Assembly: GCA_902774995.1 (NCBI GenBank)
Contig: CACYKR010000001.1
Location: forward strand, 1-59,762
Direction of reading: 5' to 3'
DNA from: an uncultured Bacteroidales bacterium
Lineage (GTDB): Bacteria; Bacteroidota; Bacteroidia; Bacteroidales; Paludibacteraceae
DNA: 59,762 nucleotides
Part shown: piece after piece, positions 7,305 through 57,240 of the stretch
Position numbering within the stretch: the first letter of the stretch is position 1
Layout: each line of letters begins with the position of its first letter
Program-made: the position numbers and the translations under genes
The notes under the pieces: generated by a model
The model's input: the letters and a program-made list of their open reading frames with translations, nothing else
What the model was told of the DNA's origin: nothing
Database searches by the model: none

Positions 7305-7342
7305 TTCCCGTCCTGCCATCCGCCATGCTTGGCGGATCAGCA

Positions 7343-23900: not shown

Positions 23901-25779
23901 AACCGCACTGGTAGGCACGCCGTTTGAGGTGGTAGTACGCCAGGGCGACGAGACTGTCTGCACGTTCTATAAATATACCATCCTGGTATCGGAATGTAAC
24001 AAAGCAGCAGACTACGTGGCTACTATCTGTGAGGATCAGCTGACCTATACGGACTACGGCTTCTCCATCGACAAAGCGGACATGCCTCTTGCCGGAGCAA
24101 GCAAGCAGTACTTCCGCCAGTCGAAGGATGAGCAGGGCTGCGACAGTCTCATCTCGCTGACGCTGAATGTGCTCAAAGCCGATACGACCTTCGTGCCGGT
24201 GGCTATTCAGAATATCGACCTGCCCTACACCGTGGACGAGTTCTACACCGTTCCGGCGGATGCAGCGGTCGGTACGCCGTTCGAGTCAACTGTCAAGACC
24301 GGCGATTGCGCATACCATACCTACCAGGTTTCTATCACCAAGTGTGAGATACCGGTTTCGTATGAGGATGCTATCTGCGAGAGCCAGGACGAGTACAACA
24401 AGTACGGCTTCCTGATTGCCAAGGCGGACATGCCTCTTGCCGGTGCAAGCAAGGCTTATACCCGTCATGCGCTGGATGAGGTAGGATGCGACAGTGTCAT
24501 CACCTTCACCCTCTCCGTCATCCCGAACGACACCACGGTACGCACCGTCAATATCGACAACACCCGTCTGCCGTATGAGGTGGATGCGTACTACACTGTG
24601 CCGGAGGATGCCGTCATAGGTGAGACCTTCGAGAAGGTGATCCGTCTCGACGAAGACGAGTGCTCGTACCGCAAGTATGTAGTGACGGTCAGCCAGTGCA
24701 GCAAGAACTTCAACTATGCTGAATCGCTCTGCGAAGACCAACTCGGCTTCGAGGGCTACGGATTCACCATAACGGAAGAAGATCTGCCGGCTGTAGGCGG
24801 TAACAAACAGTACTTCCGCCAGAACCGGAGCGAGATAGGTTGCGACAGTCTCATCACGCTCACCCTCTTCCGCAACCCGAACGACACCACGGTTGTTCCG
24901 GTCAACATCAACAACACGCAACTCCCCTACACCGTAGATGCAAACTACACCGTGCCGGTGGAGGCGTTGAAGGACGGATCGTTCGAGGTAGTGATGAAGA
25001 TTGGCGACAACGGCTGTGCATACAACCGCTATGTGGTTACTATCACCGTCATCGACTGTGCTAAGGACTACAACTATAACGCTTCGGTATGCGAGGGCAC
25101 AACTTCGTACGAGGGTTACGGCTTCACCATCACGGCGGACGAGATGCCTGCCGGCGGCGAGAGCAAAGACTTCGTACGCCGCAACCCGGATATGCTCCTC
25201 TGCGACAGTGTGATCACCCTCACCCTGACTGTTACCGCCCCGGATACCACGGAGATTCCTGTGGACCTCTGCGCGGATCAGACTTCTTACGAGGGCAACG
25301 GCTTCGTCATTGAGACGGCTGATATGCCGGCTGCCGGTGAGACCAAGAGTTATTACCGCAAGGAGCAGAATCCGGACGGCTGCTATGCCGTAACGGCATT
25401 GGCGCTCTCCGTAATGGCTCCGGATACACTCACCCATGACTCTGTCACGGTAAAACCGAAGGAATTGCCTTACCTCTGGGAAGGTACGGAGATCCTTGCC
25501 GCGGATACAGAGCCGGGCGTTTATGAGGTGGTGCTCAAGCTCACTGACGACGCTTGCAGCTATGACCGGTTCATCATTACAGTGCTCAATCCGGAAGCGC
25601 TCATCCAGATAACGGACGGCGTGGAGCGTATTGAACTCTTCGATGCCTTCGGTCATAAAGTGGCTACACTCACCCGTGATAGTGACCTCAAGTCTCTCAC
25701 GCTCCCGCAAGGGGTATATATGATACGTACTACGATGACCAGTGGCGCTGCCAAGACAGGCAAGTGCGTCATCCGGTAG
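14905..25779 (+). CDS. giant T9SS-secreted modular adhesin (3624 residues)
   Basis: Signal peptide MKQLLTRCLLLVSLMVMGFA. Residues ~25-2600 alternate about ten cleaved-adhesin/MAM-like lectin folds (LNESFASGALPGGW, PYEEDFEGYPTG, PYTESFSETPECW) with nine fibronectin III modules marked by LxNTTYYAYV. Residues ~2620-3540 hold about ten repeats of a ~70-residue module (YGFxIxxxDLPxxG...GCDSLITLTL), several separated by a second repeat containing LPYTVDxxYTVP. The last ~60 residues (IELFDAFGHKVATL...LPQGVYMIRT) are a type A T9SS sorting domain, normally removed on export with attachment to A-LPS. The family includes hemagglutinin regions of gingipains. The middle (about 17.4-20.9 kb) looks richer in A/T at third codon positions than the ends, suggesting a different history for those modules. 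Confidence 0.9.
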   Translation: MKQLLTRCLLLVSLMVMGFATGMAQQSVLNESFASGALPGGWTTIGNDWTFEKNNAEFSALIENAKDTLFAPVVNLSELKNEPTVTMSYSLGAAGANVNSLTLLYRADGQGQWDTLAVFDQATSGETSFVQALPAGMTSVQLAVAADYKAGGSTFVYLLRIANKKEATAAPENFAFENLKTTSVKLTWTASSSDFFERNNLKLSTTPLADPEQDWADVQNYIGETGLANEWCNLTDLQPATTYYAYVQYDCGYGDVSPWAELTFSTPCEAVAAPLYEDFENGLPECYTVYKKGSATTAEVSGEYPYNSTASFKVNIEGTSDFSNYLVLPELEGDLKNYQISFMAASAESGNTYSRRVAVGVCTDATNVAETYSEITTLDLPKGRTWENIVVSFKGYTGAGKYITLKIGHPSMKTNLFIDDIKVEPASACPKPMFVQVSAVTTGAATLSWTKTGSETEWNVVVSTKPLADPEEIEPNTAKGEFADAVSTNPYTLTGLKPNTTYYAYIQAGCGSSEWTEAVTFKTQREVTYPYAEHFDRMDPELYTNNTAAIPNGWVFDDRTTLASDANYYDKQYSSDSYRPYVTTAQNHEATAYVKASLLLRGTGSGTGSTKNISSIAIAPAMPKPVNTMMVTFWAYSSAAQTLKVGVANTQTNDLPQGQQLGANITEVGEAAIAGGSEWKQYKVLLTGYTGTGRYIAFYLKPGTSTPSVYIDDIEIDEAPDCNAVSTLTAEATGIDKATATWTDASSSASWTIKVSSTQIDPSAANGDIVAMQTVNTKTYNISGLAMGQTYYIYVSPSCGDAWMSTTVTTLVGLQVPYYNDFQDENQGSNAARGPKNWTLGNINVTAALGTQTNIPYVYNTAMTGAPADVVKPNLYFYHSNSATNTGAYAIMPELLNANVKDLKMSFYGSYNSTTVTANYSKGMIRVGVVDNPSDINKTNAFTKVTLIKTLYCSAPKITELFTVDFSEYAGSGKYIVFYSDTAKYNYFMLDNLTISLATDPQPVSDVEASEITKTGAKLTWTENGKAAKWEVKVFAEAPEDPETAEAVWSATVTEKQAVATGLNHSTQYYAYVRSVQDNGNGAWGSTSFFTECGTFATPFTEDWESWATGANTLSACFTQTAGMQVAGSSSPNATVKTGQVIKFNATSTNKEPMLVLPEFDKPIKTLQLTMNASPYSSSYVGDASYTEIGVLEANDNFVKIAEYRFNLSDVKAWDEVFVNFSAYTGEGGRIAIRTPYATVNKTIHICFDNLVVEEIPLCGKITTIEVENIDSVSANISWAKGKTENKWNLKVSSTELDDPATATADIFDGQLDVQNKALTGLDGNTTYYVYVQSVDETLECTGAWSNVKTFKTLCKLQTFPYEEDFEGYPTGSGSLPDCATLSGQTPDHSYVTTRGTGNQALYLRQATKDYNNYFAFPALSVDSVKRLQLSMQVAPGSTTATNYYYYEVGVMTDPNDPSTFVSIAYDSVQGAANYPFSDKMYTFDGYLGDDKGNFGTYIALKPLQYKNPTSTSYYAGYVYIDNVTIDFIETCFKPTDVTGEMGIDTVKLSWKSENEGASYLVRIFGDKDVDPETATPLAETTVTDKEAVIRNLTGNKTYYAYVQALCSETDKSKWSTVYQFKTECPEVTALPYADDFEAYDSNTVPDCWEPLDNGTNAKSRVGITYKFSGAKSLTVNYASVGSSSGNSYYQSQIVTPALDVENLKDVLVYFNMRSGNAGGSLKIEAVADETSQAEAITLTQINDIPADWTVAYLDLAKYYTSVQPYKRLRFTPTAQGKSIYIDDIVFTTDKSVILPVQDLKLQMITETTAKFSFVEYTPSVTEWQVAYVAAGGDITEATIQTVSTKEYTLTGLTANTSYDIYVRGNVEGAEWVGPLTATTIQTPAPLPLITGFEDDADKWVIYKTKTVQGDPYPNFFIVGDADNCGATGEKALFITNDSISYAYQTKDAQGEIGFSNAWATRNINIEGAGTYKFSFKVKVPANKDNESDYANAHLFPAGASILAGTATMLNGKTRAGTAVTDVPADNIYSLMGKTLHEKEWIWVTKSIDVEEAGIYTLAIFWYNSSVGAQYGEAIAVDSVIVEEYLCTTPKDFEPVEAKATEMTISWFGGKCKNFEYVVSKYANLGMPNLIDAEDKVAAGTLTDGPQVTITDLLPNTEYSLYVRTICEDGETDWVEYDFETPCALETLPYTESFSETPECWILKSASVGTTTVGTSAEHEKWNRLQLSNGGIAILPELAVPLNKVEIEIGLFNITTNLGAVQLGVMDNTWDVSTFQEIAYIQTVNKPGSTGSYTPSTLETFSKMMNLYQGSGKVLAIKNATTYSIGIKYVKLTELPDCVKPQQVEITYPTENAATVNWIAGLEEAWEIKINDSIIENVTTQPYRVTGLEQGTVYTVAVRALCDEDTKSEWSQSTTFQTPCGVNPLPMNEDFGALPNPTGSNNLARAALTCWDNLVSTNKIEQVFKGTEKPFRAPSNINAGQTWVQNWISMLGDYAQLQSYHGVYNPTYRYKWFISPQYAIEGNATLSFDVRRCGNKGQKVEFDDGRFFVAISTDNGATWKKEDATQITEIDTVYSTKTMSLDQYAGKAIRVAFYDENNAGSLASNFLLIDNVRMNCSENVAFTANACEGYDYEGYGFSIKADDLPLASKDSTYTRFAQGAGNDCDTLFTLTLTTQPKPESQTLYATICQGEGYPFGDRFITEPNPEGTPYYITAENEYGCSVYTYLYLTVLPADTVPMSSVEVLNNALPYKVDDNYTIPANAVVGTPFDTIVKVGETCTFNKYSVTVTRCQEEVAYTDTLCESADSYLGYGFAIAADELPAKGTSKDYTRTGEHNATLCDSTVTLTLTVLKNDTTAFEAVLCEKEEAYTQNGFELTKADFPAPGSSETYYRRLTNGAGCDSIVILNLEVLKNDTTFFAETLCKDVHAFADYGFSLSADELPAAGEAKTYYRTETALDGCDSITALTIAVLNYDTVAQPAIAVKYAELPYVVNDYYTIPTTALVGTPFEVVVRQGDETVCTFYKYTILVSECNKAADYVATICEDQLTYTDYGFSIDKADMPLAGASKQYFRQSKDEQGCDSLISLTLNVLKADTTFVPVAIQNIDLPYTVDEFYTVPADAAVGTPFESTVKTGDCAYHTYQVSITKCEIPVSYEDAICESQDEYNKYGFLIAKADMPLAGASKAYTRHALDEVGCDSVITFTLSVIPNDTTVRTVNIDNTRLPYEVDAYYTVPEDAVIGETFEKVIRLDEDECSYRKYVVTVSQCSKNFNYAESLCEDQLGFEGYGFTITEEDLPAVGGNKQYFRQNRSEIGCDSLITLTLFRNPNDTTVVPVNINNTQLPYTVDANYTVPVEALKDGSFEVVMKIGDNGCAYNRYVVTITVIDCAKDYNYNASVCEGTTSYEGYGFTITADEMPAGGESKDFVRRNPDMLLCDSVITLTLTVTAPDTTEIPVDLCADQTSYEGNGFVIETADMPAAGETKSYYRKEQNPDGCYAVTALALSVMAPDTLTHDSVTVKPKELPYLWEGTEILAADTEPGVYEVVLKLTDDACSYDRFIITVLNPEALIQITDGVERIELFDAFGHKVATLTRDSDLKSLTLPQGVYMIRTTMTSGAAKTGKCVIR

Positions 25780-25847: not shown

Positions 25848-27896
25848 ATGAAACGCTTGTGCATCATACTAATAGCCCTTGGGGCGGTCACTACGGTATA
25901 TGCCGGCGCGCGGTCTTCGGCCGACGCGCTGCGCATTGCCGGGGAGTTTGTATCCAACAGCGTAGCGGTCCAACAGCCTCAGCGGTCCGGCAGTCCGAAG
26001 GACAGTCTTACAGCACAGTGGTCTTATATCGCCGACTCCTCGGCGGTCTGCTTTGCCGTCAATACGGAGAAGGGCTTTGTGCTCGTCGGCGCGGATGACC
26101 GTCTGCCTGAAGTACTGGGCTACAGCGACAGCCGCTCTTTTGACCCTTCGGACATGCCACCGGCATTACGCTTCTGGATGCAGTGCTATGAGGAAGAATT
26201 GAGCAACTCTCAACTCTCCATTCTCAACTCTCTCAACTATCAACTCTCAATTTCCCCTCTCCTATCCTCCCAATGGAACCAGTCTGCGCCTTATAACAAT
26301 CTTGCACCCGCCTATAACTCCTCCGGTGCCAAGTCGGCTGCCGGATGTGTGGCTACGGCGATGGCGCAGGTGATGAATTACTATCGGTACCCTGCCTATG
26401 GTACCGGCTCTCATTCCTATCTTTGGGTATGCACGGCTACGCCCGAACTCAGTACTACCTTGTCGGCGGATTTCGGCCAGACGGCGTACGACTGGGCGAA
26501 TATGCTGGACTCCTACAAATCCGGCTATACCTCTGCGCAGGCAACTGCGGTGGCAACCCTGATGTACCACTGCGGCGTAGCGGTGGAGATGGGCTATGGG
26601 GCTTCTTCCGGTGCCTATACCGAGAGAGTGCCGGCGGCTCTGAAGACATGGTTCGGCTATGACCCGAACTACCAGCGTATCCGCAAATCCATGTACCCGG
26701 CGGACAGCCTCAATGCCATCATCTATAGCGAACTGGCTGCGAAAAGACCGGTGCTCGTCAGCGGCTTCAATGACGAGGGAGGGCATGCCTTTGTATGCGA
26801 CGGAGCGGACAGCCGCGGCTATTTCCATATCAACTGGGGCTGGGGAGGCTCCAACGACGGTTACTATCTCCTCTCCGCCCTCAATCCCGGTAAGGCGCAA
26901 GGCATAGGCGGTACTACCAAAGGATACAACCAGTCCACAGCCTTCTATATCGGCGTGCAGCCTGCGGGCAAACAGACACCGCCTGCCGTCCCCCAGATGG
27001 CGGACAGCCTCTTCACCATATCGGCTACCTCCTTCAGCCGCTCGGAGACCTTCACGGTCTCGGTCTATAAGATGCAGAACTTCGGACTGACGGACTTCAG
27101 CGGATCGTATGGAGTGGCGCTCTATGACGAGGACGAGAAGGAACTGGTCTCGGTCCTCAAACAGCAGGATAACTATTCCCTTTCCGCTGGGTATTACCGT
27201 ACTACGGTGGCTGCACTCTCCCGGCTGACCATCCCTTCCTCCGTGCCCGACGGTAATTACCACCTCTGCGTGGTCTATCGGAATGCCGACTACGGCTGGA
27301 TGCGGATGATGAGCACGGCGGATGATTACTACCTCTCCCTCTCTATAGCGGATGGCAAGGTTTCCATATACCCCAATAACGCGGAACCGGAACTGACCCT
27401 CACGGACGCAATCTCGTTCGGACAGGACGTGAACACCGACTCCATCCCCATGACAGGAAAACCCCTCTCCTTCACCGTCAAAAACACAGGAGGAACCTTC
27501 CGCGGGGAAATATCCGCACGTATCTATAAAGGCGCGTTCTCCAAAGGACAATATGAGATTGTCAGTGAGGTGGTTATCCGCCGCAACGAGACGTTCTCTT
27601 CCGCGCTGCAGCAGACCTTTGACGAGAATCTCCTGACCGATACCCAGTATAAGATGCGGCTCTGCTGGAGAAAGGATGCTGATGACAGCTGGCATAACTT
27701 CACTCCCTCCGAATACGGCGAACTGCCCTTCAAACTCTGTATCCCGCAGGACAAACCCGATGACTCGGGAGTGACTACGGCATTGGAGCTGCACGCTGCG
27801 GATCAAGACACGGACGGCAAGTATATGCGTGACGGACGTCTGTTCATCCGGCGGGACGGGAAGACATATAACGCGCAAGGCATGTTGATGAAATAA
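25848..27896 (+). CDS. C10-family secreted cysteine peptidase
   Basis: Streptopain/interpain-type protease, 682 residues. Signal peptide MKRLCIILIALGAVTTVYA, then a propeptide-like region (residues ~20-135). The catalytic Cys is in SAAGCVATAMAQVMNYYRYP, the catalytic His in GGHAFVCDG, and the Trp/Asn region in INWGWGGSNDGYY. About residues 375-640 form beta-rich C-terminal domains, and the tail KYMRDGRLFI...YNAQGMLMK is the shared C-terminal motif. A low-complexity insert (LSNSQLSILNSLNYQLSIS) at about residues 120-140 is encoded by a tandem DNA repeat at the propeptide/catalytic junction. Adhesins plus a C10 protease in one operon suggests surface protein binding and degradation; this is inference. 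Confidence 0.92.
   Translation: MKRLCIILIALGAVTTVYAGARSSADALRIAGEFVSNSVAVQQPQRSGSPKDSLTAQWSYIADSSAVCFAVNTEKGFVLVGADDRLPEVLGYSDSRSFDPSDMPPALRFWMQCYEEELSNSQLSILNSLNYQLSISPLLSSQWNQSAPYNNLAPAYNSSGAKSAAGCVATAMAQVMNYYRYPAYGTGSHSYLWVCTATPELSTTLSADFGQTAYDWANMLDSYKSGYTSAQATAVATLMYHCGVAVEMGYGASSGAYTERVPAALKTWFGYDPNYQRIRKSMYPADSLNAIIYSELAAKRPVLVSGFNDEGGHAFVCDGADSRGYFHINWGWGGSNDGYYLLSALNPGKAQGIGGTTKGYNQSTAFYIGVQPAGKQTPPAVPQMADSLFTISATSFSRSETFTVSVYKMQNFGLTDFSGSYGVALYDEDEKELVSVLKQQDNYSLSAGYYRTTVAALSRLTIPSSVPDGNYHLCVVYRNADYGWMRMMSTADDYYLSLSIADGKVSIYPNNAEPELTLTDAISFGQDVNTDSIPMTGKPLSFTVKNTGGTFRGEISARIYKGAFSKGQYEIVSEVVIRRNETFSSALQQTFDENLLTDTQYKMRLCWRKDADDSWHNFTPSEYGELPFKLCIPQDKPDDSGVTTALELHAADQDTDGKYMRDGRLFIRRDGKTYNAQGMLMK
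26208..26255. repeat. in-frame tandem (CAACTCT)n repeat in the C10 gene
   Basis: Degenerate tandem of CAACTCTCAACTCTC-type words inside the coding sequence, kept in frame. A related repeat lies in the signal peptide of the C69 gene at 55178-55212. Confidence 0.8.
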
Positions 27897-27909
27897 TATA
27901 AATGGGATT

Positions 27910-29544
27910 ATGACAAAACAGAAAAAGAACATTCTTCATTCACCGCTTATAGTAACCGCCATGCTGGCGTGGTTGCTTCTTCCGGCGTCGCTCTATGCGG
28001 GCGTCAAGGACGAGAGTCTGCATTTTCTTACTACCGAAGCCGGAGTCGGCTATTCGGCTCTGCTCCATTCTTCGGATCTGGGCAAGTCCTCCGGACTGGC
28101 GGGAGGCAAACTGCAACTGGGATATGAATGGAATTACCGCAAGCTCCTCGTCCATACGGGTCTCGAGTTCGCCCTTCTCAGCGACAAGGCGGATGTGAAC
28201 CCCTTTACCATGACCTCGGATTATACCTATGGTCTGCCGGCTGGGCAGAAGATGACCCAGCATTTCGCTTTCAGTTCCTACACCTCCTCGCCGATAATGG
28301 GGCAGGTGAATATCCCTGTCCAGGTAGGTGCCGTCTTCGCCAAACGCTACTATTTCCTTGCCGGTGCAAGGATAGGCTTGCCTGTCCTCCGTCCGGCGCA
28401 GGTGCGTTCGACGGTCACTACCTCCCTCACCGACGATGCACTGATAGGCGAGCTGAACGGCGTGCATGTGCATGATGCCTATACCTCGGATGAGAAAGCG
28501 TCGCTCCAATGGCCGGCGGCAACGGTCAATGCGCAGCTCTCCGCGGAGGTCGGACTGGTGCTGAACTCTTTCTGGGAGAAACCGGAGCCCGCCAAGAAAA
28601 CGAAAGGGCGCTCTGCTGCCAACAGCCGTTCCTCCAAACAGGCGAAGAAACCGGTGCTCTTCCGGGTCGCGCTTTTTGCGGATTACGGAATTACCTCATG
28701 CCTCGCCTCAACGGAGCCGAAACCGCTGGCAGAGGTGGCGGAACCGAGACAGATAGCTTTTAATGACTATTTCGCCGCTTCCGGCGCGAAGGTGAACTCC
28801 CTACTCGTAGGAGCCAAATTTGCCGTGCTCTTCCAGCTCAATGACCCCAAACCGAAGAAGACCAAACCCATGCCTTCTTATTTCGATATCTATATTGCGG
28901 ATGCCGAGACGGCGCAACCCGTTCCCGCTTCGCTGAAGATATACGACCAGGCTAAGAAACGCTCGGTTGTCAAGGAGGCGAAGAAAGGCCACCTCCGCCA
29001 CCGCGCTAAACCCGGCGCTTATACCTTCACCGCAACCAATGACCGTTACTTCCCCTTCACTACGGAGGCTACGCTGGCTCAGGAAGGGATCACCGACACG
29101 CTCCGTTTCGCTATGCAGCCGAAACCCGTACCGGTGGATACACCGGTCATCGATATCCCTATCGAGGTCGGCACTACCGTTGTATTGCATAACCTCTTCT
29201 TCGCTACCGGCAAGACGGTTATCCTGCCCGAGTCGGAGCAGGCGCTGGACGAACTCGCTGCCTTCATGCAGGAGCATGGCGAAGTCACCGTCCGTATCAC
29301 GGGACACACCGATGACGTAGGCTCGGAGCGCTCCAACCAGATACTCTCGGAGGGACGTGCCAATGCCGTCCGCAACGAACTCCTCAAACGCGGTGTCGCT
29401 CCTGCCCGGATAGAAGCGGACGGCAAGGGCGAGACGCAGCCTATTGCGGATAATAAGACCGAAGAAGGACGTGCTAAAAACCGCCGTGTAGAGATAACTA
29501 TCATCTCCACCGGCTCCGAGCAAATCCAACAACTCCGCGACTGA
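27910..29544 (+). CDS. OmpA-family outer-membrane protein
   Basis: 544 residues. Signal peptide ending near LLPASLYA. Residues ~30-300 form a beta-barrel related to the proteins from 2561 and 7873 (NIPVQVGAVFAKRYYFLAGA). About 320-410 is a small carboxypeptidase-regulatory-like beta domain (DIYIADAETAQPVPASLKIY). The C-terminal ~120 residues are an OmpA peptidoglycan-binding domain (NLFFATGKTVILPES, TGHTDDVGS, NRRVEITI). It is the last gene of the surface operon, 13 bp after the C10 peptidase. A plausible role is anchoring the outer membrane or a secretion complex to peptidoglycan. It lacks the WD40 part expected for PorE, so it is not called PorE. Confidence 0.9.
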   Translation: MTKQKKNILHSPLIVTAMLAWLLLPASLYAGVKDESLHFLTTEAGVGYSALLHSSDLGKSSGLAGGKLQLGYEWNYRKLLVHTGLEFALLSDKADVNPFTMTSDYTYGLPAGQKMTQHFAFSSYTSSPIMGQVNIPVQVGAVFAKRYYFLAGARIGLPVLRPAQVRSTVTTSLTDDALIGELNGVHVHDAYTSDEKASLQWPAATVNAQLSAEVGLVLNSFWEKPEPAKKTKGRSAANSRSSKQAKKPVLFRVALFADYGITSCLASTEPKPLAEVAEPRQIAFNDYFAASGAKVNSLLVGAKFAVLFQLNDPKPKKTKPMPSYFDIYIADAETAQPVPASLKIYDQAKKRSVVKEAKKGHLRHRAKPGAYTFTATNDRYFPFTTEATLAQEGITDTLRFAMQPKPVPVDTPVIDIPIEVGTTVVLHNLFFATGKTVILPESEQALDELAAFMQEHGEVTVRITGHTDDVGSERSNQILSEGRANAVRNELLKRGVAPARIEADGKGETQPIADNKTEEGRAKNRRVEITIISTGSEQIQQLRD

Positions 29545-29562
29545 CATGGATACAACAAGCAC

Positions 29563-29590
29563 CGTGCCGCATAACTGACTATGCGGCACG
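29563..29590. terminator. hairpin after the surface operon (repeat 1)
   Basis: Perfect 11-bp stem CGTGCCGCATA / TATGCGGCACG with loop ACTGAC. There is no T-run, so termination is only possible. The core CGCATAACTGACTATGCG is repeated at 29845-29862. Confidence 0.55.
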
Positions 29591-29655
29591 ATGTCTGTCG
29601 TATAACCTCTTTCTCCACAAAAAATAAAATAATTTTATGTTATTCGACATTTTGC

Positions 29656-29686
29656 TTGCAGATGTCGAATTTTTTTTGTAACTTTG
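29656..29686 (+). promoter_or_regulatory. promoter with -33 box in a hairpin loop
   Basis: TTGCAGAT from 29656 and TAACTTTG at 29679-29686, with a 20-nt spacer. The TTG sits in the loop of an inverted repeat TTCGACAT (29643-29650) / ATGTCGAA (29662-29669) followed by a T-run. It would start a ~0.7 kb leader before the gene at 30408. Confidence 0.7.
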
Positions 29687-29762
29687 CGCCCGATTTGTTC
29701 GGGCGCGTACGAGATACGTATATATAGGTACGCGTGCGAGCGCCGGACATTAAAAATGCATT

Positions 29763-29855
29763 ATGGAGAACACAGTTAGTTTGTTCCGTCGTTATTCTGA
29801 CGGAGGAGAGTTTGTATCGGAACCGGAATCGTATTCTACCGGGTCGCATAACTGA
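29763..29855 (+). CDS. possible 30-residue leader peptide or gene remnant
   Basis: ATG to TGA encodes MENTVSLFRRYSDGGEFVSE followed by ten residues. The start context AAAAATGCATTATGG is the same as that of the real gene at 37238, and ATGCATTATG also precedes 30408. The stop codon lies inside the repeat hairpin at 29845-29862. It could be a translated leader peptide or the decayed start of a lost gene. Nothing in the peptide is recognisable. Confidence 0.3.
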   Translation: MENTVSLFRRYSDGGEFVSEPESYSTGSHN

Positions 29856-29862
29856 CTATGCG
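29845..29862. repeat. second copy of the CGCATAACTGACTATGCG hairpin
   Basis: Identical 18-nt core to the hairpin at 29563-29590, with different outer pairs. Confidence 0.8.
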
Positions 29863-29960
29863 GCCGGGCTTGCTGTATCTGCATACTGCATCCATCCATA
29901 GTCCCGCCTCAGGACTATAAACAGAGGCAAATCACCGGCTACCAAATGGTACATGGTAAA

Positions 29961-30112
29961 TTCTCGCATCCTTGCGAGAACCAAAAGAAAAACACTTTGT
30001 CCCTTGCCGTCGGATTTTATCCGACAACAAGAAAAACATCATACATTTTTCTCGCATCCTTGTGAGAATCAAAAAATAAACTCTTCGTCCATTAGGTCGG
30101 ATGCTATCCGAC
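29961..30112. repeat. duplicated two-hairpin unit in the leader
   Basis: Two copies of an ~88-bp unit. Each holds an 8-4-8 hairpin (TTCTCGCATCCTTGCGAGAA at 29961-29980; a G-to-T variant of its right arm at 30049-30068) followed by a 7-3-7 hairpin (GTCGGAT-TTT-ATCCGAC at 30009-30025; GTCGGAT-GCT-ATCCGAC at 30096-30112). Stems are conserved while loops and linkers differ. No coding potential. Confidence 0.85.
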
Positions 30113-30120
30113 AATAAAGC

Positions 30121-30368
30121 ATCGCCCATGCATGGGCGATCAAAAAAGCAGCATCGACCAAGCTTGGGCGATTAAAAAAAGCAGCATCGACCATGCATGG
30201 GCGATTAAAAAAACAGCATCGACCATACATGGGCGATCAAAAAAAGCAGCATCGACCATACATGGGCGATTAAAAAAAGCAGCATCGACCAAGCTTGGGC
30301 GATTAAAAAAGCAGCATCGACCATGCATGGGCGATTAAAAAAAGCAGCATCGACCAAGCTTGGGCGAT
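30121..30368. repeat. array of eight 32-33 bp hairpin repeats
   Basis: Eight hairpins start at 30121, 30153, 30186, 30218, 30251, 30284, 30316 and 30349. Each is 20 nt, ATCG(C/A)CC-NNNNNN-GGGCGAT; the centre is ATGCAT, AAGCTT or ATACAT. The joining sequence is constant, (T/C)(A)6-7GCAGC or CAGC. The first copy is a perfect palindrome; the others carry an A facing G near the stem base. Short frames reading through it (SIDHAWAIKK repeats) are by-products. Confidence 0.93.
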
Positions 30369-30407
30369 CAAAATAAGGAAATAACACTAACTTAAATATA
30401 ATGCATT

Positions 30408-33400
30408 ATGAAAAATTTACTTAATCTTAAAGGACTGTGTCGGAGCAGTCAATTAGCACTCAATCCCGACGGTCAAACGACGGTCGAACGACGGTCAAGG
30501 CTAATGTCTATTATCTGTCTATTCCTCCTCACCCTCGGTGCCGGACAGATGTGGGGTACTGGAACAGCAACAACGGTGTATTATGCAATAAACACCAGTT
30601 ATACTGTCAAATGTAATTATGCACAATGCGGCGACTGTAACAGCGGTGGACAAGGTTGGTGGGGCACTGTAACGATGACCAAGGTAAGCGGAAAAAAATA
30701 CAATGGCAAAGACATCTATAAAGCAGAATTCACCGACCAATATAATGGGTTGGCATGTATGCAATTCCAATTATATGATGGAAGTACTTGGCAAAGTCAA
30801 GACGAAGCATTCTGTAATTCATGGACAGGAGTTGATACTTATAATGGAAAATTATGGGATGGTGACAGCTGGGAAGCATATAGATGGGATCAGATAGGTT
30901 TTGAAGATAACGCATCGACTAATTTTATATCATACTACAATGGTGCCAATCGGACTTGGGGTGTTAGTAGAAATAGTCAAGCGGCATATGATTTAGGCAC
31001 TATTTCTACCCTGTACCTCAAAGGGTTCCAAACTCACATGTATCAGAATGCAGATTTAATCTCTGGTGACGTGAAGATGTATTACCAAATCCATCGTCAA
31101 GCAGTCAGCGATGGAGATTATACTTTGTATGAGCAAAACAATTGGTCGGATTGGTTGGTGGATACTAAAGAAAATTCAGGATGGAAAGATGGTTGGAGAC
31201 ATCCCAAATTCGGACATGACAACCTAAATATTAACCTTTTGTCCGGTTTGTATAGCGGCAAATATGTCTTACGTTTCTTCATGAAAGAAGAAGGCAGTAC
31301 TTCATACTTGAATAACGGTGATGGTTCAAACTATTCTCTCAAATGGACCATCGGTGTTCCGGCAATGGCAACGCATACTTGTACATCCGATGGCTCCGGT
31401 AATGGATCAAGTGAGACTCCATTTACTAAAGCAGTAGGCAGCAATTTGACAATAACAATTGCTGGAACCCAATCGACGCGGGACGATAACTCTGTACTGT
31501 ATGTTAGTTTTGATGGTGGCTCGTCCTATTCCACCACTACGACACATACCATTAATAGTATTACATCAACAAAGCAATCGCTGTCTATTAAGGCAAAGTA
31601 CCGTAATAATACGGACGATATAGATGGTACTATATATGATTTCGGTACGATTTACTATCAGGGAACAGCGACTCCGAGTTTGGCAATTAGTAGTTTCGAG
31701 CAAAACGAAAGTACTGTCACAGCAGCTAACTCTGGCTCTACAGTAACTATCCATGCCAGCCGCGAGAACGCAGGTACAGCAGAGATTACCTACGAGTATA
31801 GTACCAGCAGTACGTTCGCTTCTGATGTACACACTATAGCGTCCACCATTTCTACATCGCAATCATGGACATTACCTGCTTGTACATCAACAACCACGTA
31901 TTACGTGAGGGCTTCCATGACATATAGCGCTACTAATTATAGTGATATAGAATCATTTAAGGTGTATGGAAAGAAGACAATTAAAGTAAAGAATACCAAC
32001 GGTTGGTCTCCGTTCTACATGCACCGTTGGGGTGGAGATCGTGCAGATACGGGATTCCCAGGCGAGGATGATCAAATATCCGATTATGGTACCGGTCAGT
32101 GGAAAGAGGTAGTGCTCTATTCATCTAATGACAACTTCATCTTTGTTGACGGAACAAATACGAGCAACAAGAATAGCGACCAAACATACGCAGGTGTGAC
32201 AGATGGTGCATGCTATGAGATTGCATCCGGAACGGGAGTAGTGGCATTGAATAGCACCCTTAATTGCCCTGCAAAGCCGTCATTAACGACGACATCCACT
32301 CCGTCGGCGAATAACTATACGACCGCGACGATTGCAGGAAATATATCGTCCAACGGCAACGATAATATCACCGATTATGGTTTCTATTGGGGTACATCTG
32401 CAACTCCAGGCACAAAAGTGCAAAAAGGTAATAGCAACTACACCGGCGATATCAGTCATGATTTGACTTCTCTCACTCCGGGTACAACGTACTACTATCG
32501 TGCGTATGCTGCTAACGGACAAGGAGAGACGCTTGGTACTGTATATAGTTTCAAGTCACCGTATAAAGTTACTATCTCTCAGTCAACCGGTTGTAGTTCG
32601 ATTTCTCCTAGCGGCACACAATACACGTCCGGTTCGATTAACCTGACCGCTGATGCAGCAACAGGTTATACCTTTAGTGCGTGGGAGAAGACAAATGGTG
32701 ATCTGAGCAGTGCTGCTACTCCGAGTGCCGGAAGGAACACTGTTACCTTTACTCCGACAAGTGATAACGCAACAATCACAGCTACATACGATGAGGATAT
32801 GCACGCTGTTGATATTGTAGCCAATGATGCTTATGGAAACTCACATGGTAGTGTATCGGTCGACAAAGTCAATGTTGGTATTGCAACGGTATCTGAAGAA
32901 ATTACTGCAACTCCGGAAAACAAGGCATGGCGCTTCAAGCATTGGGTGATTGCTCCGGGCATCAGTGCAGCAGATGGTTATGATACACATTCCAATCCGC
33001 TCAAGATAAATGCAACCAGTGATGATATCACCCTCATCGCGTACTTCGAGCCGCGTTATGCGCTGATGGGTTCATTGGCTGAGGATGGCGATCCGGCCGG
33101 TGGTATGCCATATCCGACCTGGAATGATGGGGCTGCAGCTGACTTTGAGGTTTTTGGTTTCGATGCAGTAGATAAAGAAGATGGAGTTGATTTACGTTGT
33201 ACTCGCACATTGGAACCGAACAAAACCTATAAGTTCCAAGTATATGATCGTGAAATTAAGACCCTTGATGCTGAAAATTATCATACTCGTCTTGGTTTGA
33301 GTTCGGCAACCGTACTTCCGGCCAGCGATAGCCGCGAACTGACAGTAGTCAACGGATCCGGTGATGTAAGAATCCAGACCGTCGGACGTGGTAATTATAC

Positions 33401-36400
33401 ATTCAAAATCACGAAACTCTCCAGTGATGCCACCTATAACCGACCGACAATTACAGTTGAGCGTCCATCGTCTCATCTTGTTTCGATTGGTCAGGGATAT
33501 GTTGATATAGATGATGTGGCTCATAGCAATAGTACTACCGGTGGTACGCTATCAGCTGAGGCTACAGAAAGTGGTACAACGATTGCTATCACCAATGGTA
33601 AGTATATTGCTAATGATGGAAGAGTGGACTGGACGGTAGATCCTGCGGACGGTTATACGCTTGATAAGTATTATGGCTATGCTGATTTCTCCGATGGTGG
33701 ATTTACCTTTACCTATATTGATTCGGTTAATGCCGCAGTTAATGTGTATGCGAAGTTTGTAGAGACCTCGACGGCTGTGACGATTAGCCATAACACGCAC
33801 GGACATGTAACCGTAGGCGGAGTGACGGCTACCAGTACGACCGTTGGTATCACGACCACACGTGCACTTGTCGCTGTTCCTGATGCCGGTTATTATTTCG
33901 CCGGTTGGACAGTACCTGATGGCGCTGACTTTGAGCTGCAAGATAAGAGCGAGACCGAAGATGCAGAAGTAACGCTCCATGGTCTCGGCGCCGGTACTGC
34001 CGGAACTCTGATTGCCAACTTCGTGGAACTGGACAAGATCTATTTCCGGAATATCTTTGACGACGGAGCGGGAAATGTAAGCCGCTGGAGTAACGTGTAT
34101 GTCTATTTTGACTACTCATGGGATGGAGATAAAGTTCACACGAACAGCAATGCTGCTTATAAAGTAGCGATGACCAGAATCGGTTCAACGGATGTATATT
34201 ACGGATATGTGCCGCGAGCTATTACCACATCCGGAAATAAAAAAGTTGCTTTCTCGGATACAGACTTTACAGTAAATTATACATTCTATAATGTTACAGC
34301 AAGTGGCTCTAAGGGAGCAGTACGTAGTGATTATAGCCCGTTGCTGAATATGTTTGTTCCTTATCATACTCCGAACCAAACAAACAATAACGGTGTAGAT
34401 TATTACTCCAACGGTTACTGGATGAAGTACGATACCCGCGCATCGCAAGGCGCAGGGTACTATTTGAAGGTTTATAACAGCAGGAATAACTACACAGAGA
34501 AGGGTGAGTTTACTGCCAATACCGATGATGCCACCATGATTCGTTTCCAAGTTCGTGTGGATAACACCAATGCTGATAAGACCCGCTTCATGATAACCTC
34601 CGCCGGAGGACTGAACTATTTGGCAGCTGCTACGCCGACATCTACCGCCAATAGCGACATAGACCTTAATGAAGACACACGCACGTTGACAGGTAATGAT
34701 GTCTATTTCCAACTGACAGCTACTTCCGAGGGTTTCTACACCTTCATCCTTGACCAGACGGGCGATAAGATGAAGCTGACGGTTGATTATCCTGTCAGTC
34801 CGGGTGACTACCGTCTGAAACACACGTACTCAGGACGCAACAAAGCCAATACAGCCGATTCGACCTATATTACCTATTCGGATGTTATCAAGGCTTCGAC
34901 CGCCGGTACTGCCAAGACTTATTCCATGTATCTAAATACGGGCGGTGAAGAAACCTTGGTTCTACAGAAATGCGAGCGAATCAACAACACTACCCAATTG
35001 CCGGAATGGAGCGAAGGGGACGCGACCAATCTGTCTGCTGTTTTAACTAAAGTAAGATCGGATGATAATGGCGTATACCAGTTTGATGTAACCGTTAGTG
35101 CGGATAAAGTAAATACGGTAGATGCCATCAAGAAATACGAGGGCAACTATTACATCAAGACAGACTGCGCTCCCGGCGGTTGGGTGAACTACACGCAGAA
35201 CGCAATGGAGGCGAACACCATCAATGCTACTGCTGCCGGATATGACTATTATTTCTTAAAGTGGATTGACAATACCGAGACCAATGTGAAATGCGTTATT
35301 GCCAATGACTTTAACAACGAGTTGAGCGATACGCTGAAATCAGATGCTATTCTGACGCGTAACGGAGAGGCTTACCAGACCCTTCCGGAAGCTGCCAGTG
35401 TCCGTTTCAGTTATGACAGCAAGACCAACACACTCAAACGTACTTACTTGCGCGGCTCTACGTTGTCTGAGAACTTCGTCACTTTAGTGCCGAATGCAGC
35501 AGAGTATGTGTATAGCGCAAAGACCTCTGGCACAGACTACTATTCCTCCAATCCGAAGTTTGCGGATAACGGCAACTGGACCTACCAGATGGATGCATGG
35601 GTTTATCCGGGTGCCAAAGGTGGTGTGCAGACCAGTTATCCGGGAGTGGATCCCGTGACAATTCAGACACTGGTTCCCATGGACAACGACCTGATGGGCG
35701 GTACCAAACCTGTGTCCGATCCGGTGCTCTACCACGTCCGCCTGGTATATGATTTCAAGACAGATTACCTGATGGCGGCATATATTCCGGACGCTACAAC
35801 ACCCATCACGACAGAGATAGACCTGCAGTCCGATATGATGTATGTCCGCAGCGGTGTAAGCAACGGTACGCAGTTGTCGTTTGATGAGAATAATGGCAAA
35901 CTAACTCATGTCCGCCGTGCATATGCAGCAATCCAACTGCCTAAAGACGAGATGGTCGGGCAGATGACTACGTGGAGTGCTAACGATTATCGGGCATACA
36001 AATACTGCCGGTACTATATCTCCTTCCCGTTTGATGTGAATGTACGTGACATCTTCGGCGTAGGAACTTTCGGGAATGAGTATATCATCAAGATGTACAA
36101 CGGAGCCAAACGTGCTCAGATAGGCTGGTTTGCCGAGACAGAGACATTCTGGGAGACTCTGACGATAGACAGCGTGCTCCATGCATACCAGGGTTACTGC
36201 CTCATGCTTGACAGAAACGCCTTCAATGATGCTTCCAACGGAGTATGGACCAACATCGGTACAGGCGGTTCCACATTCCTGTACTTCCCGTCCAGCAGCA
36301 CGGCTATCGGCGAGATAAATGGCAACGGCGGCACCATTCCGGTTCCAACCCATACGTGCACAATAGACCGTACATTCGGTACGCCGGTAAAGAACCACAA

Positions 36401-37178
36401 GAATACGGACTCCAACTGGAACCTTATGGGCTTTGCTCCTTATGCTAACGCAAAGAAGACAGGCGAAACACTGGCATACTATGTCTATGAACCAGAAGGA
36501 AACAGCTGGACATCTGCCAACACCTCAGAAACTAATAACTTTAACTCTATGCACGCTTATATGGTACAATGGGGTGGTGATTTCAACTACATACAGGCTC
36601 CTGATGTACCGTCATCCGTAGCAGCACGCAGAGTAAAAGCCCAGAAGAAAAATGATTTCATCCGTCTGGAGCTGCTCTATAACGGGGCAAAAGCAGACCA
36701 TGCCTTGATAAAGATGACAGACGGTGCAGATAAGGACTTTGTCCTCAATGAGGATATGGGCAAGATCATCAATAGCGGCAAACCGAACATATACGTCTAT
36801 GCCGGCAACTACGATGTAGCTTTCAGCCAAGTGCCGGAAGAGAGCCAGACGGTGCAGGTCGGTGTAGTCATCCGTAAGAATGGCACCTACACCTTCTCGA
36901 TGCCGTCGAACTTCGACGGAACAGTCACGCTGATTGATAACTTTACGCAGACGCGCACCAATCTTGCAATAGAGGATTACGAGGTGAGCCTGCCGAAGGG
37001 AGAGATTAACGACCGCTTCCTGTTAGAGATCAATATCCGCCAAGTGCCGACAGCGATTGACGGCGTAGAGGGCGGTTCGCTCAAGGACGGCAAGGCGCAT
37101 AAGTATATCGAGAACGGAGCGATGTATATCCTCCGCGATGGTAAGATCTACGATGCCCGCGGAAACAAAGTAAAATAA
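30408..37178 (+). CDS. 2256-residue secreted protein with InlB-like repeats
   Basis: An extended N-terminus leads to a signal segment (MSIICLFLLTLGAGQMWG, residues ~33-50). Residues ~50-180 and ~520-605 look like small carbohydrate-binding modules (KNTNGWSPFYMHRWGG). About 620-720 is a FN3-like module (LTSLTPGTTYYYRAYA). About 720-1200 holds several InlB B-repeat-like units (AATGYTFSAWEK, DAGYYFAGWTVPDGA). About 1860-2230 is a domain shared with the protein from 39136 (ISFPFDV, LLHAYQGY-type segment). The C-terminus is KYIENGAMYILRDGKIYDAR plus GNKVK, the shared tail. Codons are more A/T-rich than in neighbours. Residues ~20-31 are encoded by a tandem ACGACGGTCA repeat. The long hairpin leader suggests post-transcriptional control. 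Likely a surface or secreted glycan-binding protein. Confidence 0.85.
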   Translation: MKNLLNLKGLCRSSQLALNPDGQTTVERRSRLMSIICLFLLTLGAGQMWGTGTATTVYYAINTSYTVKCNYAQCGDCNSGGQGWWGTVTMTKVSGKKYNGKDIYKAEFTDQYNGLACMQFQLYDGSTWQSQDEAFCNSWTGVDTYNGKLWDGDSWEAYRWDQIGFEDNASTNFISYYNGANRTWGVSRNSQAAYDLGTISTLYLKGFQTHMYQNADLISGDVKMYYQIHRQAVSDGDYTLYEQNNWSDWLVDTKENSGWKDGWRHPKFGHDNLNINLLSGLYSGKYVLRFFMKEEGSTSYLNNGDGSNYSLKWTIGVPAMATHTCTSDGSGNGSSETPFTKAVGSNLTITIAGTQSTRDDNSVLYVSFDGGSSYSTTTTHTINSITSTKQSLSIKAKYRNNTDDIDGTIYDFGTIYYQGTATPSLAISSFEQNESTVTAANSGSTVTIHASRENAGTAEITYEYSTSSTFASDVHTIASTISTSQSWTLPACTSTTTYYVRASMTYSATNYSDIESFKVYGKKTIKVKNTNGWSPFYMHRWGGDRADTGFPGEDDQISDYGTGQWKEVVLYSSNDNFIFVDGTNTSNKNSDQTYAGVTDGACYEIASGTGVVALNSTLNCPAKPSLTTTSTPSANNYTTATIAGNISSNGNDNITDYGFYWGTSATPGTKVQKGNSNYTGDISHDLTSLTPGTTYYYRAYAANGQGETLGTVYSFKSPYKVTISQSTGCSSISPSGTQYTSGSINLTADAATGYTFSAWEKTNGDLSSAATPSAGRNTVTFTPTSDNATITATYDEDMHAVDIVANDAYGNSHGSVSVDKVNVGIATVSEEITATPENKAWRFKHWVIAPGISAADGYDTHSNPLKINATSDDITLIAYFEPRYALMGSLAEDGDPAGGMPYPTWNDGAAADFEVFGFDAVDKEDGVDLRCTRTLEPNKTYKFQVYDREIKTLDAENYHTRLGLSSATVLPASDSRELTVVNGSGDVRIQTVGRGNYTFKITKLSSDATYNRPTITVERPSSHLVSIGQGYVDIDDVAHSNSTTGGTLSAEATESGTTIAITNGKYIANDGRVDWTVDPADGYTLDKYYGYADFSDGGFTFTYIDSVNAAVNVYAKFVETSTAVTISHNTHGHVTVGGVTATSTTVGITTTRALVAVPDAGYYFAGWTVPDGADFELQDKSETEDAEVTLHGLGAGTAGTLIANFVELDKIYFRNIFDDGAGNVSRWSNVYVYFDYSWDGDKVHTNSNAAYKVAMTRIGSTDVYYGYVPRAITTSGNKKVAFSDTDFTVNYTFYNVTASGSKGAVRSDYSPLLNMFVPYHTPNQTNNNGVDYYSNGYWMKYDTRASQGAGYYLKVYNSRNNYTEKGEFTANTDDATMIRFQVRVDNTNADKTRFMITSAGGLNYLAAATPTSTANSDIDLNEDTRTLTGNDVYFQLTATSEGFYTFILDQTGDKMKLTVDYPVSPGDYRLKHTYSGRNKANTADSTYITYSDVIKASTAGTAKTYSMYLNTGGEETLVLQKCERINNTTQLPEWSEGDATNLSAVLTKVRSDDNGVYQFDVTVSADKVNTVDAIKKYEGNYYIKTDCAPGGWVNYTQNAMEANTINATAAGYDYYFLKWIDNTETNVKCVIANDFNNELSDTLKSDAILTRNGEAYQTLPEAASVRFSYDSKTNTLKRTYLRGSTLSENFVTLVPNAAEYVYSAKTSGTDYYSSNPKFADNGNWTYQMDAWVYPGAKGGVQTSYPGVDPVTIQTLVPMDNDLMGGTKPVSDPVLYHVRLVYDFKTDYLMAAYIPDATTPITTEIDLQSDMMYVRSGVSNGTQLSFDENNGKLTHVRRAYAAIQLPKDEMVGQMTTWSANDYRAYKYCRYYISFPFDVNVRDIFGVGTFGNEYIIKMYNGAKRAQIGWFAETETFWETLTIDSVLHAYQGYCLMLDRNAFNDASNGVWTNIGTGGSTFLYFPSSSTAIGEINGNGGTIPVPTHTCTIDRTFGTPVKNHKNTDSNWNLMGFAPYANAKKTGETLAYYVYEPEGNSWTSANTSETNNFNSMHAYMVQWGGDFNYIQAPDVPSSVAARRVKAQKKNDFIRLELLYNGAKADHALIKMTDGADKDFVLNEDMGKIINSGKPNIYVYAGNYDVAFSQVPEESQTVQVGVVIRKNGTYTFSMPSNFDGTVTLIDNFTQTRTNLAIEDYEVSLPKGEINDRFLLEINIRQVPTAIDGVEGGSLKDGKAHKYIENGAMYILRDGKIYDARGNKVK
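30467..30498. repeat. in-frame tandem ACGACGGTCA repeat
   Basis: Three imperfect copies of a ~10-nt unit immediately before the signal-peptide core of the 2256-residue protein, encoding DGQTTVERRS. Confidence 0.75.
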
Positions 37179-37600: not shown

Positions 37601-37679
37601 GGAGGCTTGCCTGAGCATGAGCGGTTGTCCCGATGAGGGGGCAAAAATGGATGATGAGAGCAAAAAATCGACATAACAC

Positions 37680-37710
37680 TTGCGTATGTCGATTTTTTGT
37701 AGTACCTTTG
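37680..37710 (+). promoter_or_regulatory. REP-borne promoter of the RAYT gene
   Basis: TTGCGTAT from 37680 and TACCTTTG at 37703-37710, 20-nt spacer. The TTG is in the loop of a 14-bp perfect inverted repeat (37662-37675 / 37685-37698) with A- and T-runs at its base. The A-run/T-run stem could also act as a terminator for incoming transcription. Confidence 0.75.
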
Positions 37711-37787
37711 CAGCAGATAGAAAGGGCTGGTTCGTGAAAAGGAGGGCTGTCCCAATGATGGGACAAAAGTGCATGATGAGAAGAGAG

Positions 37788-38903
37788 ATGGATAATAAAC
37801 CGTATATGACACCGGAAGGGTGGAAACGACCGGTTGACCCTATGCGACATCACAGAGAAACGCATTGGGACTATAAAGGACGAGGGATATACCATGTCAC
37901 TCTTGTTGTGGAGAAGCATTACCCTCTCTTCGGGCAATTGGCGGGCGATAGCCCGGAAAATGCGTATGTAGAGTTGAACTGCTTTGGCAAACAAGTGCTG
38001 GAGAAATTGCAGGATACGCCTCGTATATATGGTGAGAAAGGATATGCGGTTAAGATTCTGGCATCGCAGATCATGCCTGATCATGTGCATATCGCGATAC
38101 AAGCCTTGGAACAACTACCGAAGAGTATAGGGATGGTTATCCGCGGATTCAAAAGTGCTTGCACATCGCTTTATAAGCGTGAGTATGCAACGGGTTGTCC
38201 CGATAATGGGACAAAAGGGTATGACGAGGAAAGGAAGGAGAGAAACATCATGCAATTTTCTCGTATCTTTACGAGAACAGGGACGATATGGGAACAACGA
38301 CCGGAGCATTATCACGAGCGGATACTCCATCCTAATAGCAATATCTCTGATATGATAGCCTATATTCAGGATAATCCCAGGCGCTTGGCTCTAAAAAGAG
38401 CTCATCCGGATTTATTTAAAATACAGGAAAATATCATATATAAAGGAATGGAGATACGGGTAATGGGAAACCGGTTTTTGTTGGATAAACCGATGAAAGA
38501 GGCGTTTCATTGCTCACGAACATTAGAGCAGAAGGAGATAGAGGCTCTCCGAAATCAATGCCTCGCTAAAGCAGAGGAAGGAACCATATTTATATGTGCA
38601 GCAATATCAGAGGGAGAGACACTGATATGTCGGTCCATCCGTGAGCACGAGCTGCCGCTGATAATCATATTAGCGGAGGGATTTCCCGATGAAAAGAGCG
38701 AACATTACCCATATTTCAAACCAACCGGAGTTTATTTTGAAGCTTGTGCAGAAGGACGATTGCTACTGATCGAACCAAGTAGAGATTGGTTAGAGAGTCC
38801 GGAGATAACAAAGAAGACAGAAGCAAAGGTAGGAAACATCCCCCGCGAAAGCAAGCGATGGCGGTTTGTGGCGATGAATTATATAGCAGAGATGTTAGCC
38901 TGA
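37788..38903 (+). CDS. REP-associated tyrosine transposase (Y1/HUH) with extra C-terminal domain
   Basis: 371 residues from 37788; in-frame ATGs at 37773 and 37776 are alternatives, and the frame open to 37680 is the promoter. The HUH motif is MPDHVHIAIQ; the catalytic Tyr is probably in MIAYIQDNPRRL. RAYTs nick and move REP hairpins. Between these motifs, residues ~135-165 (CPDNGTKGYDEERKERNIMQ and after) are translated from an inserted REP-like repeat. After the Y1 domain (~210) comes a ~150-residue domain (GTIFICAAISEGE, LPLIIILAEGFPDE, CAEGRLLLIEP) that resembles Rossmann-type nucleotide-binding folds such as DprA/SLOG; that resemblance is by eye. Frame intact, so probably active or recently active. 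Confidence 0.88.
   Translation: MDNKPYMTPEGWKRPVDPMRHHRETHWDYKGRGIYHVTLVVEKHYPLFGQLAGDSPENAYVELNCFGKQVLEKLQDTPRIYGEKGYAVKILASQIMPDHVHIAIQALEQLPKSIGMVIRGFKSACTSLYKREYATGCPDNGTKGYDEERKERNIMQFSRIFTRTGTIWEQRPEHYHERILHPNSNISDMIAYIQDNPRRLALKRAHPDLFKIQENIIYKGMEIRVMGNRFLLDKPMKEAFHCSRTLEQKEIEALRNQCLAKAEEGTIFICAAISEGETLICRSIREHELPLIIILAEGFPDEKSEHYPYFKPTGVYFEACAEGRLLLIEPSRDWLESPEITKKTEAKVGNIPRESKRWRFVAMNYIAEMLA
38190..38302 (+). repeat. REP-like sequence inside the transposase gene
   Basis: Contains TTGTCCCGATAATGGGACAA and TTCTCGTATCTTTACGAGAA hairpins, and is ~95% identical by eye to 38909-39020 outside the gene. It is translated in frame. Confidence 0.85.
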
Positions 38904-39075
38904 GCATGAGCGGTTGTCCCGATGAGGGACAAAAGTGGATGACGAGGAAAGGATGGAGAGAAACATCATGCAATTTTCTCGTATCTTTACGAGAACAGGG
39001 ACGATATGGGAACAACGACCCTATCCCGATGAGGGGACAAAAATGGATGATGAGAGCAAAAAATCGACATAACAC

Positions 39076-39106
39076 TTGCGTATGTCGATTTTTTGTAGTA
39101 CCTTTG
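39076..39106 (+). promoter_or_regulatory. second copy of the REP-borne promoter, before the gene at 39136
   Basis: TTGCGTAT from 39076 and TACCTTTG at 39099-39106, 20-nt spacer. It is identical to the RAYT promoter including the enclosing inverted repeat (arms from about 39058 to 39094). Confidence 0.78.
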
Positions 39107-39135
39107 CAGCGGATTTTTAAATAATACAATATATT

Positions 39136-56935: not shown

Positions 56936-56965
56936 GATAGCCGGCATTCTTGCCGGCTATTTTCT
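56936..56965 (+). terminator. terminator after the C69 gene
   Basis: Stem GATAGCCGGCA / TGCCGGCTATT with loop TTCT, followed by TTTTC. Confidence 0.75.
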
Positions 56966-57240
56966 TCGTTAGTTACGCGGGATAGTATCCCGCATTATAT
57001 TCTTTGTATTGTGAGCGCTATGTGTCAGCATCGCGTCTTCGTCTATTAGCCCGGCATTTAATGCCGGTATTTTCTTCGTTAGTTACGCGGGATAGTATCC
57101 CGCATTATATTCTTTGTATTGTGTGCGCTATGTGTCAGCATCGCGTCTTCGTCTATTAGCCCGGCATTTAATGCCGGTATTTTCTTCGCCTGCTGCGCTA
57201 TGCGTCAGCATCGCGTCTCCGTCTATTAGCCCGGCATCGG
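56961..57240. repeat. 110-bp tandem repeat, 2.5 copies, with hairpins
   Basis: Copies at 56961-57070 and 57071-57180 are almost identical; a third, internally shortened and diverged, runs 57181-57240. Each full copy holds GCGGGAT-AGT-ATCCCGC and CCGGCAT-TTA-ATGCCGG hairpins, preceded by TTCGTTAGTTAC and TTCGTCTATTAG. No coding potential. Confidence 0.9.

Follow-up and report, generated by a model that had tools for sequence, protein, structure and literature searches.

The start codon of a gene for a predicted surface protein in a Paludibacteraceae genome is preceded by a regular row of short hairpins, which raises the question of whether this row is a device of that particular gene or the local form of something distributed more widely. 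Sequence and repeat analysis of the window, i.e., the whole stretch of 59,762 nt under study, located eight 20-nt hairpins in tandem (Table 1), starting at 30121, 30153, 30186, 30218, 30251, 30284, 30316 and 30349 and thus spaced by 32, 33, 32, 33, 33, 32 and 33 bp. TRF scored the 33-bp unit at 408 and the 65- and 98-bp units at 436. The central hexamer is ATGCAT in three units, AAGCTT in three and ATACAT in two, and the joints are almost identical A-rich 12-13-mers of the form (T/C)A6-7(G)CAGC. Coordinates, TRF and hexamer counts confirm the number of hairpins, the period, the A-rich joints and the three hexamers given in the original prediction, and the distance of about 40 bp to the start codon was measured as 39 nt (ATG at 30408). 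Its description of the units as palindromes holds fully for unit 1, whereas the stems of units 2-8 (ATCG-A-CC / GG-G-CGAT) all contain one A.G mismatch, and an additional A.C pair lies at the centre of the two ATACAT units. Units 2-8 have the same direction and unit 1 is symmetric, so the inverted pairs or alternating orientation of a REPIN or BIME are not found here; nor are the constant repeats with unique spacers of a CRISPR, as the joints are nearly alike. In the broad sense of a REP, the array does consist of short palindromes that fold as one strand. An Rfam scan at gathering score matched a single tRNA in the whole window and nothing in the array, ruling out a known leader RNA family.

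Table 1. Positions of the array and of related features in the window.
Feature	Position	Strand	Basis or remark
Candidate Bacteroidetes-type promoter	29651..29686	+	TAACTTTG at 29679-29686, preceded at 20-24 nt by TTTG or CTTG
Two further hairpins in BIME-like alternation, TTCTCGCATCCTTGYGAGAA (29961, 30049) and GTCGGATnnnATCCGAC (30009, 30096)	29961..30112	+	87-88 bp period
GA/GC-subtype hairpin array, 8 units head-to-tail, ATCGACC-N6-GGGCGAT	30121..30368	+	period 32-33 bp
Array unit 1, ATCGCCC..GGGCGAT, sole fully paired unit	30121..30140	+	sequence, folding
Array unit 8, last hairpin, 39 nt 5' of ATG	30349..30368	+	sequence
P0002, predicted surface protein, 2256 aa, divergent InlB B-repeat domain	30408..37178	+	ORF, domain match
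P0001, RAYT-like Y1 transposase gene, 407 aa, clade different from the one linked to the array hairpin	37680..38903	+	homology, tree
TTCTCGTATCTTTACGAGAA hairpin within P0001 coding sequence, type as at 29961 and 30049	38258..38277	+	sequence
TTCTCGTATCTTTACGAGAA-type hairpin in 95-nt duplicate just after P0001	38976..38995	+	sequence
Lone superfamily hairpin, CG/CG subtype (ATCCGCCATGCTTGGCGGAT), between genes	7318..7337	+	pattern search

The source genome has ten copies of the exact form ATCGNCC-N6-GGGCGAT, eight in the array and two elsewhere. The search of related genomes that had been proposed for it returned 39 of 101 congeneric genomes, and none with the reversed control. When the two inner stem positions were freed, the resulting superfamily pattern ATCNNCCANNNNTGGNNGAT (ATC-xx-CCA-nnnn-TGG-xx-GAT) gave 29 sites in the source genome (control 0) and 838 in the congeneric genomes, 70 of 101 being positive (reversed control 3). 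Of 137 family genomes from outside the genus, 24 were positive, 23 with one or two sites and one with 14 (control 3 sites). Judged by a simple longest-ORF script, which gives approximate gene ends and also underlies the strand-bias and array-context counts below, 22 of the 29 source-genome sites are intergenic, or 14 of 21 once the array is set aside, with ORFs covering 88% of the examined stretches. Dispersed, mostly extragenic copies, another mark of a REP in the broad sense, are therefore present. The array units represent one subtype (hereafter GA/GC), defined by the constant A.G mismatch together with a GY tag on the 5' side. We conclude that the array is part of a genus-wide dispersed hairpin superfamily and is no device specific to the surface-protein gene.

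The freed stem positions come out paired throughout the genus, and therefore the stem-preserving changes, which had been taken to suggest selection for folding, are general and extend beyond the array, and this compensatory pairing supports such selection. In counts that take in related and tandem copies, with each site read on both strands, 404 of 408 rows show a standard pair at stem positions 4 and 17 (G-C 178, C-G 154, A-T 72), and pair 5-16 is mostly G-C or the fixed A.G mismatch. For loop pair 9-12, standard pairing was counted in 120 of 123 GA/GC hairpins (60 expected), 55 of 60 of the CG/CG subtype (30 expected) and 28 of 34 of the AG/CT subtype (17 expected), these counts likewise including related and tandem copies. 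The two strands are also marked differently. WWG(T/C) stands directly before ATC in GA/GC hairpins, with G at -2 in 79% and T/C at -1 in 91% of 48 contexts (those called single have one hairpin in 100 nt; a small number belong to widely spaced arrays or lie in coding sequence). Neither GTAG nor GTGG lies directly 5' of these hairpins, and the canonical GTAG is thus absent. Among six array strands folded as single-stranded DNA, mismatched units reached -5.3 to -5.4 kcal/mol, the opposite strand -3.3 and unit 1 -8.5; the GY tag and the mismatch share one strand, which is the better folded one (-5.4 vs -3.3 kcal/mol). The working strand is probably 5'-GY-ATCGACC..GGGCGAT, since tag and mismatch coincide on it, which strand-specific recognition by TnpA-REP would require. 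By analogy only, such marks would fit the strand and mismatch requirement of the E. coli REP enzyme, which acts on one strand and needs GTAG and a stem mismatch (PMC8266576).

The superfamily is tied to one group of RAYT-like genes. In a tree of 72 RAYT-like rows, the 16 with an internal superfamily hairpin form one clade (SH-aLRT 100; 15 genes, one having been fetched twice), and none of the other 56 contains one. A profile from 11 clade members matched 131 of 178 genomes, and the 30 loci with the best matches were examined. The hairpin lies within the coding sequence at 29 of these 30 loci. In 28 of the 29 its distance downstream of the HUH motif is exactly 109 nt, and there it encodes [Y/H/D/N]-x-P-x-[M/L]-[A/V]-D in frame. 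Its loop pair 9-12 is complementary in 27 of 29 cases, or 15 of 17 after identical hairpins have been collapsed, and 0 of 20000 permutations did as well. CG/CG and AG/CT hairpins also flank clade genes, as REPs flank RAYT genes: the flanking subtype equals the internal one in 21 of the 28 loci having both, and in the remaining seven the inner subtype was not found in the flank, two (L217 and L225) having a plainly different subtype there. The proteins are 364-414 aa long; the HUH motif is present in 30 of 30 loci, and the pattern applied for the Y motif matched in 28 of these. NCBIfam REP_Tyr_transpos matches each of the 11 aligned members (the first with 39.5 bits against a curated cut-off of 80), and six of 11 match Pfam Y1_Tnp at E 0.01; among solved structures, none matched the clade profile or P0001. 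In raw counts uncorrected for relatedness, the median number of hairpins per genome is 12 with the clade (n = 17) and 1 without (n = 84; p = 4e-6). Nine of the 84 genomes that have no strong clade member, the source genome included, hold at least 24 sites, one of them (G001) 81. Genomes richer in the other subtypes also have more of the array pattern (Spearman 0.66), as do those with the clade (p = 1.5e-4). These data also bear on the possibility that the palindromes are double-stranded operators for a dimeric DNA-binding protein. Near-perfect dyads at constant spacing are what operators would look like, but the oriented, fixed A.G mismatch and the one-sided tag break the dyad, and hundreds of dispersed copies together with a fixed place in RAYT-like genes are unlike a regulon; we regard operators as very improbable.

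Among the suggestions made for the array, namely a translational or stability switch, a binding platform and a RAYT substrate, the last is the best supported, through the link of the superfamily to one RAYT-like clade, although the exact subtype of the array is not itself linked. None of the 30 best-match clade loci has an internal GA/GC hairpin, and the profile search found no clear clade member in the source genome (87% complete). Across the 72 rows, GA/GC hairpins lie within 1 kb of just two RAYT-like genes (L073 and L074, of another clade) and inside none. These two have GA/GC upstream, but several members of their type share a downstream hairpin, CCCGACTgccAGTCGGG, and we do not claim them as the array enzyme. 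A similar mismatched form, ATCCGCC..GGAGGAT, occurs in eight copies (G086) and in four (G148) adjoining a clade gene. We infer that mismatched hairpin forms may be non-autonomous targets of clade-type enzymes, and that a RAYT would move or cut the GA/GC subtype. Hairpins of other types were also seen in tandem beside RAYT-like genes, with seven units of about 45 bp (L061 / L225), eight of about 32 bp (L199), four (L201) and five at 77 bp (L045).

RAYT-like proteins were found in the source genome on contig 47 and in the window (P0001), the latter matched in 66 of 101 congeneric genomes. P0001 was rejected as the first choice for the array enzyme because it belongs to another clade and its neighbourhood holds different hairpins, of the TGTCCC and TTCTCG types. 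The TTCTCG hairpin is part of a 95-nt block found within the gene (38208-38302) and again just after it (38926-39020), the two copies being 97% identical. The single-sequence structure model of P0001 (mean pLDDT 32.5) was useless. A TGTCCC-type stretch recurs five times from 37622 to 39059, and a 91-nt repeat brackets the gene (37628-37718 and 39024-39114, 98% identical), comprising a hairpin and a promoter-like TAnnTTTG stretch. The TTCTCGCATCCTTGYGAGAA (TTCTCG) type has nine places in the source genome: two in the P0002 leader, five in that of a paralogue on contig C32, one inside P0001 and one just after it. In the C32 leader (G000:C32:15503-15884, L186), the five TTCTCG hairpins alternate with GTCGGAT-type ones at about 90 bp. 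The TTCTCG hairpins of the P0002 leader would thus point to P0001, 7 kb downstream, and this leader looks like one bearing elements of two REP systems. Elsewhere in the window, a 110-bp unit is repeated 2.2 times at 56951-57188 (98% matches), with two further palindromes inside and perhaps of another REP family; a single open frame of 3624 codons spans 14905-25779, and a Peptidase C10 with an Inhibitor_I69 (Spi) domain lies at 25848-27896.

Tandem arrays recur beyond the source genome. In a collection of 84,980 species genomes, from which records very close to the window's own were possibly left out, the tandem pattern matched 26 stretches; they come from 14 genomes, whose titles all name Bacteroidales or Paludibacteraceae and several of which are from ruminants. 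Viral contigs gave no tandem-array match, and a viral origin of the arrays was rejected. The other arrays have spacings of 28-46 bp, each with its own joint sequence; the 28 arrays compared are head-to-tail by design of the search and hence provide no test of orientation. Copy number differs between orthologous sites. The orthologous leader in G075, 93% identical, has two units against eight, in agreement with the copy-number variability that had been predicted. A locus at tRNA-Ser and tRNA-Leu has six units in one genome and three in another, and a locus before a frame of 410-412 codons has 3, 2, 2 and 2 units in four genomes, this frame being GatZ-like in one of them (L258) and equated in the other three by length and place only. 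The source genome is a fragmented draft in 114 contigs, where 33-bp repeats can be miscounted, and the count of eight could be off through short-repeat assembly. That the array as such is an assembly artefact or a chance tandem repeat is nevertheless highly unlikely, as its units vary in loops and joints, another assembly (G075) has the leader with two units, and 26 such stretches are present in 14 named genomes.

The position of the array could also mean that it is a selected leader RNA device, a hairpin ladder that would set mRNA stability or translation and be tuned by copy number. It lies in sense just before the ATG and behind TAACTTTG with its upstream TTTG/CTTG, which may be a Bacteroidetes-type promoter. 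This candidate is also present in G075, and such a promoter would place the array and the upstream hairpins within the transcript. A sigma-70-type scan of 29500-30500 gave two sites against 2.1 expected, both on the minus strand, and nothing above chance. As RNA, the leader folds strongly (z = -6.5 vs dinucleotide shuffles), but in the lowest-energy fold pairing between units outweighs eight separate hairpins, i.e., no ladder is formed. Ten of the 28 arrays lie in sense at most 50 nt before an ORF start (gene ends approximate), at about six gene loci and including a 7-unit array with A-rich joints before PEPCK, and the C32 leader has an array as well, of another hairpin type. Against this, arrays also adjoin Dus, the tRNA pair and, in antisense before it, the GatZ-like gene, and the strand bias between codirectional genes is not significant (18 sense vs 9 antisense among 46 places, p = 0.12; a single hairpin or an array counts as one place, sites less than 700 nt from a locus end were dropped and some places are orthologous). 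Moreover, the superfamily hairpin is absent from all 20 regions (1.6-1.7 kb) around the starts, estimated from frame lengths, of other homologue genes, and a leader device shared by the protein family was rejected on this count; in a further paralogue of the source genome, on C28 and outside these 20, a CG/CG hairpin lies some 1.3 kb upstream of the estimated start. With these homologues negative and arrays beside PEPCK, Dus, the tRNA pair and the GatZ-like gene, the proposal of a switch specific to the surface-protein gene is not supported. The original prediction had named the same array at positions unrelated to genes as evidence against itself, and the similar arrays beside these four neighbours come close to that. 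Overall we consider a selected leader device improbable; an effect of the array on gene expression is possible.

Taken together, the array is most likely a REP-like element turned into a copy-number-variable tandem array, and the superfamily to which it belongs is linked to RAYT-type Y1 (HUH) transposases of the genus. A single such element would have settled in the leader of the surface-protein gene, and the element with a short flank would then have been multiplied head-to-tail, to two copies in G075 and eight in the source genome. Either replication slippage over the hairpins or cleavage by a RAYT at the tag would drive the expansion, the data fitting both, and any effect on the leader RNA would be a by-product or a later use of the array. 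More speculatively, and in our opinion rather unlikely, REP hairpins could seed minisatellites through RAYT-type nicking at the GY tag; leaders of large surface-protein genes (P0002, C32) would keep such arrays, of different REP types, as expression dials set by copy number, and each RAYT-like gene of the clade would carry, in frame and at a single codon position, the hairpin that it targets as a record of specificity.

The REP and RAYT studies consulted concern mostly Proteobacteria, and the structures at one Bacteroidetes subclass are called atypical in PMC6006769; in one open-access library, no title dealt with the present hairpin family or with REPs of Paludibacteraceae. The genus (178 genomes) offers hairpin subtypes differing at two stem pairs, transposase genes with a matching in-frame hairpin and variable arrays. 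With all three in one genus, two questions become testable, namely the specificity between RAYT and REP, and enzyme versus slippage in tandem expansion.

The system resembles the GTAG-type REP/RAYT systems of E. coli, Pseudomonas and Stenotrophomonas in its palindromes (20-40 nt there), in many dispersed intergenic copies, in RAYT genes flanked by matching palindromes and in strand asymmetry (PMC2817692, PMC8266576, PMC3733652). It differs from them in that the superfamily hairpins have no GTAG, with WWGY directly before ATC and one A.G mismatch, in that the arrays are head-to-tail and not inverted, and in the clade proteins of 364-414 aa. With the CGTC-tagged REP families, reported as having no flanking transposase, the hairpins share a stem of 8-9, a loop of 4-5 and first two pairs A-T and T-A, but their tag is different (PMC3733652). 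Closer parallels are the TnpA-REP subclasses 2.4, with REPs in frame within the transposase gene and generally between the HUH and Y motifs, and 2.6, mostly of Bacteroidetes, with atypical flanking structures and copies elsewhere in the genome (PMC6006769). The present clade is like the former in its in-frame internal hairpin and like the latter in its flanks and genome copies; since both subclasses have been described there, the kind of system is known. Unlike in either, the position of the internal hairpin is constant, at +109 from HUH in 28 of 29 cases, and its subtype agrees with that of the flank in 21 of 28 loci; the hairpin motifs differ from the table of PMC6006769, the comparison being one of descriptions. 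In P. fluorescens SBW25, two REP types take turns in the largest REP/REPIN arrays, at distances of 112 and 72 bp (PMC3116915). Ordered tandem REPs or REPINs with flanks are common to both systems, and evenly spaced REPs of a single type occur there at two places (PMC3116915), whereas the arrays described here are built from a single REP in units of 28-46 bp, eight at most, with a copy number that varies at orthologous sites.
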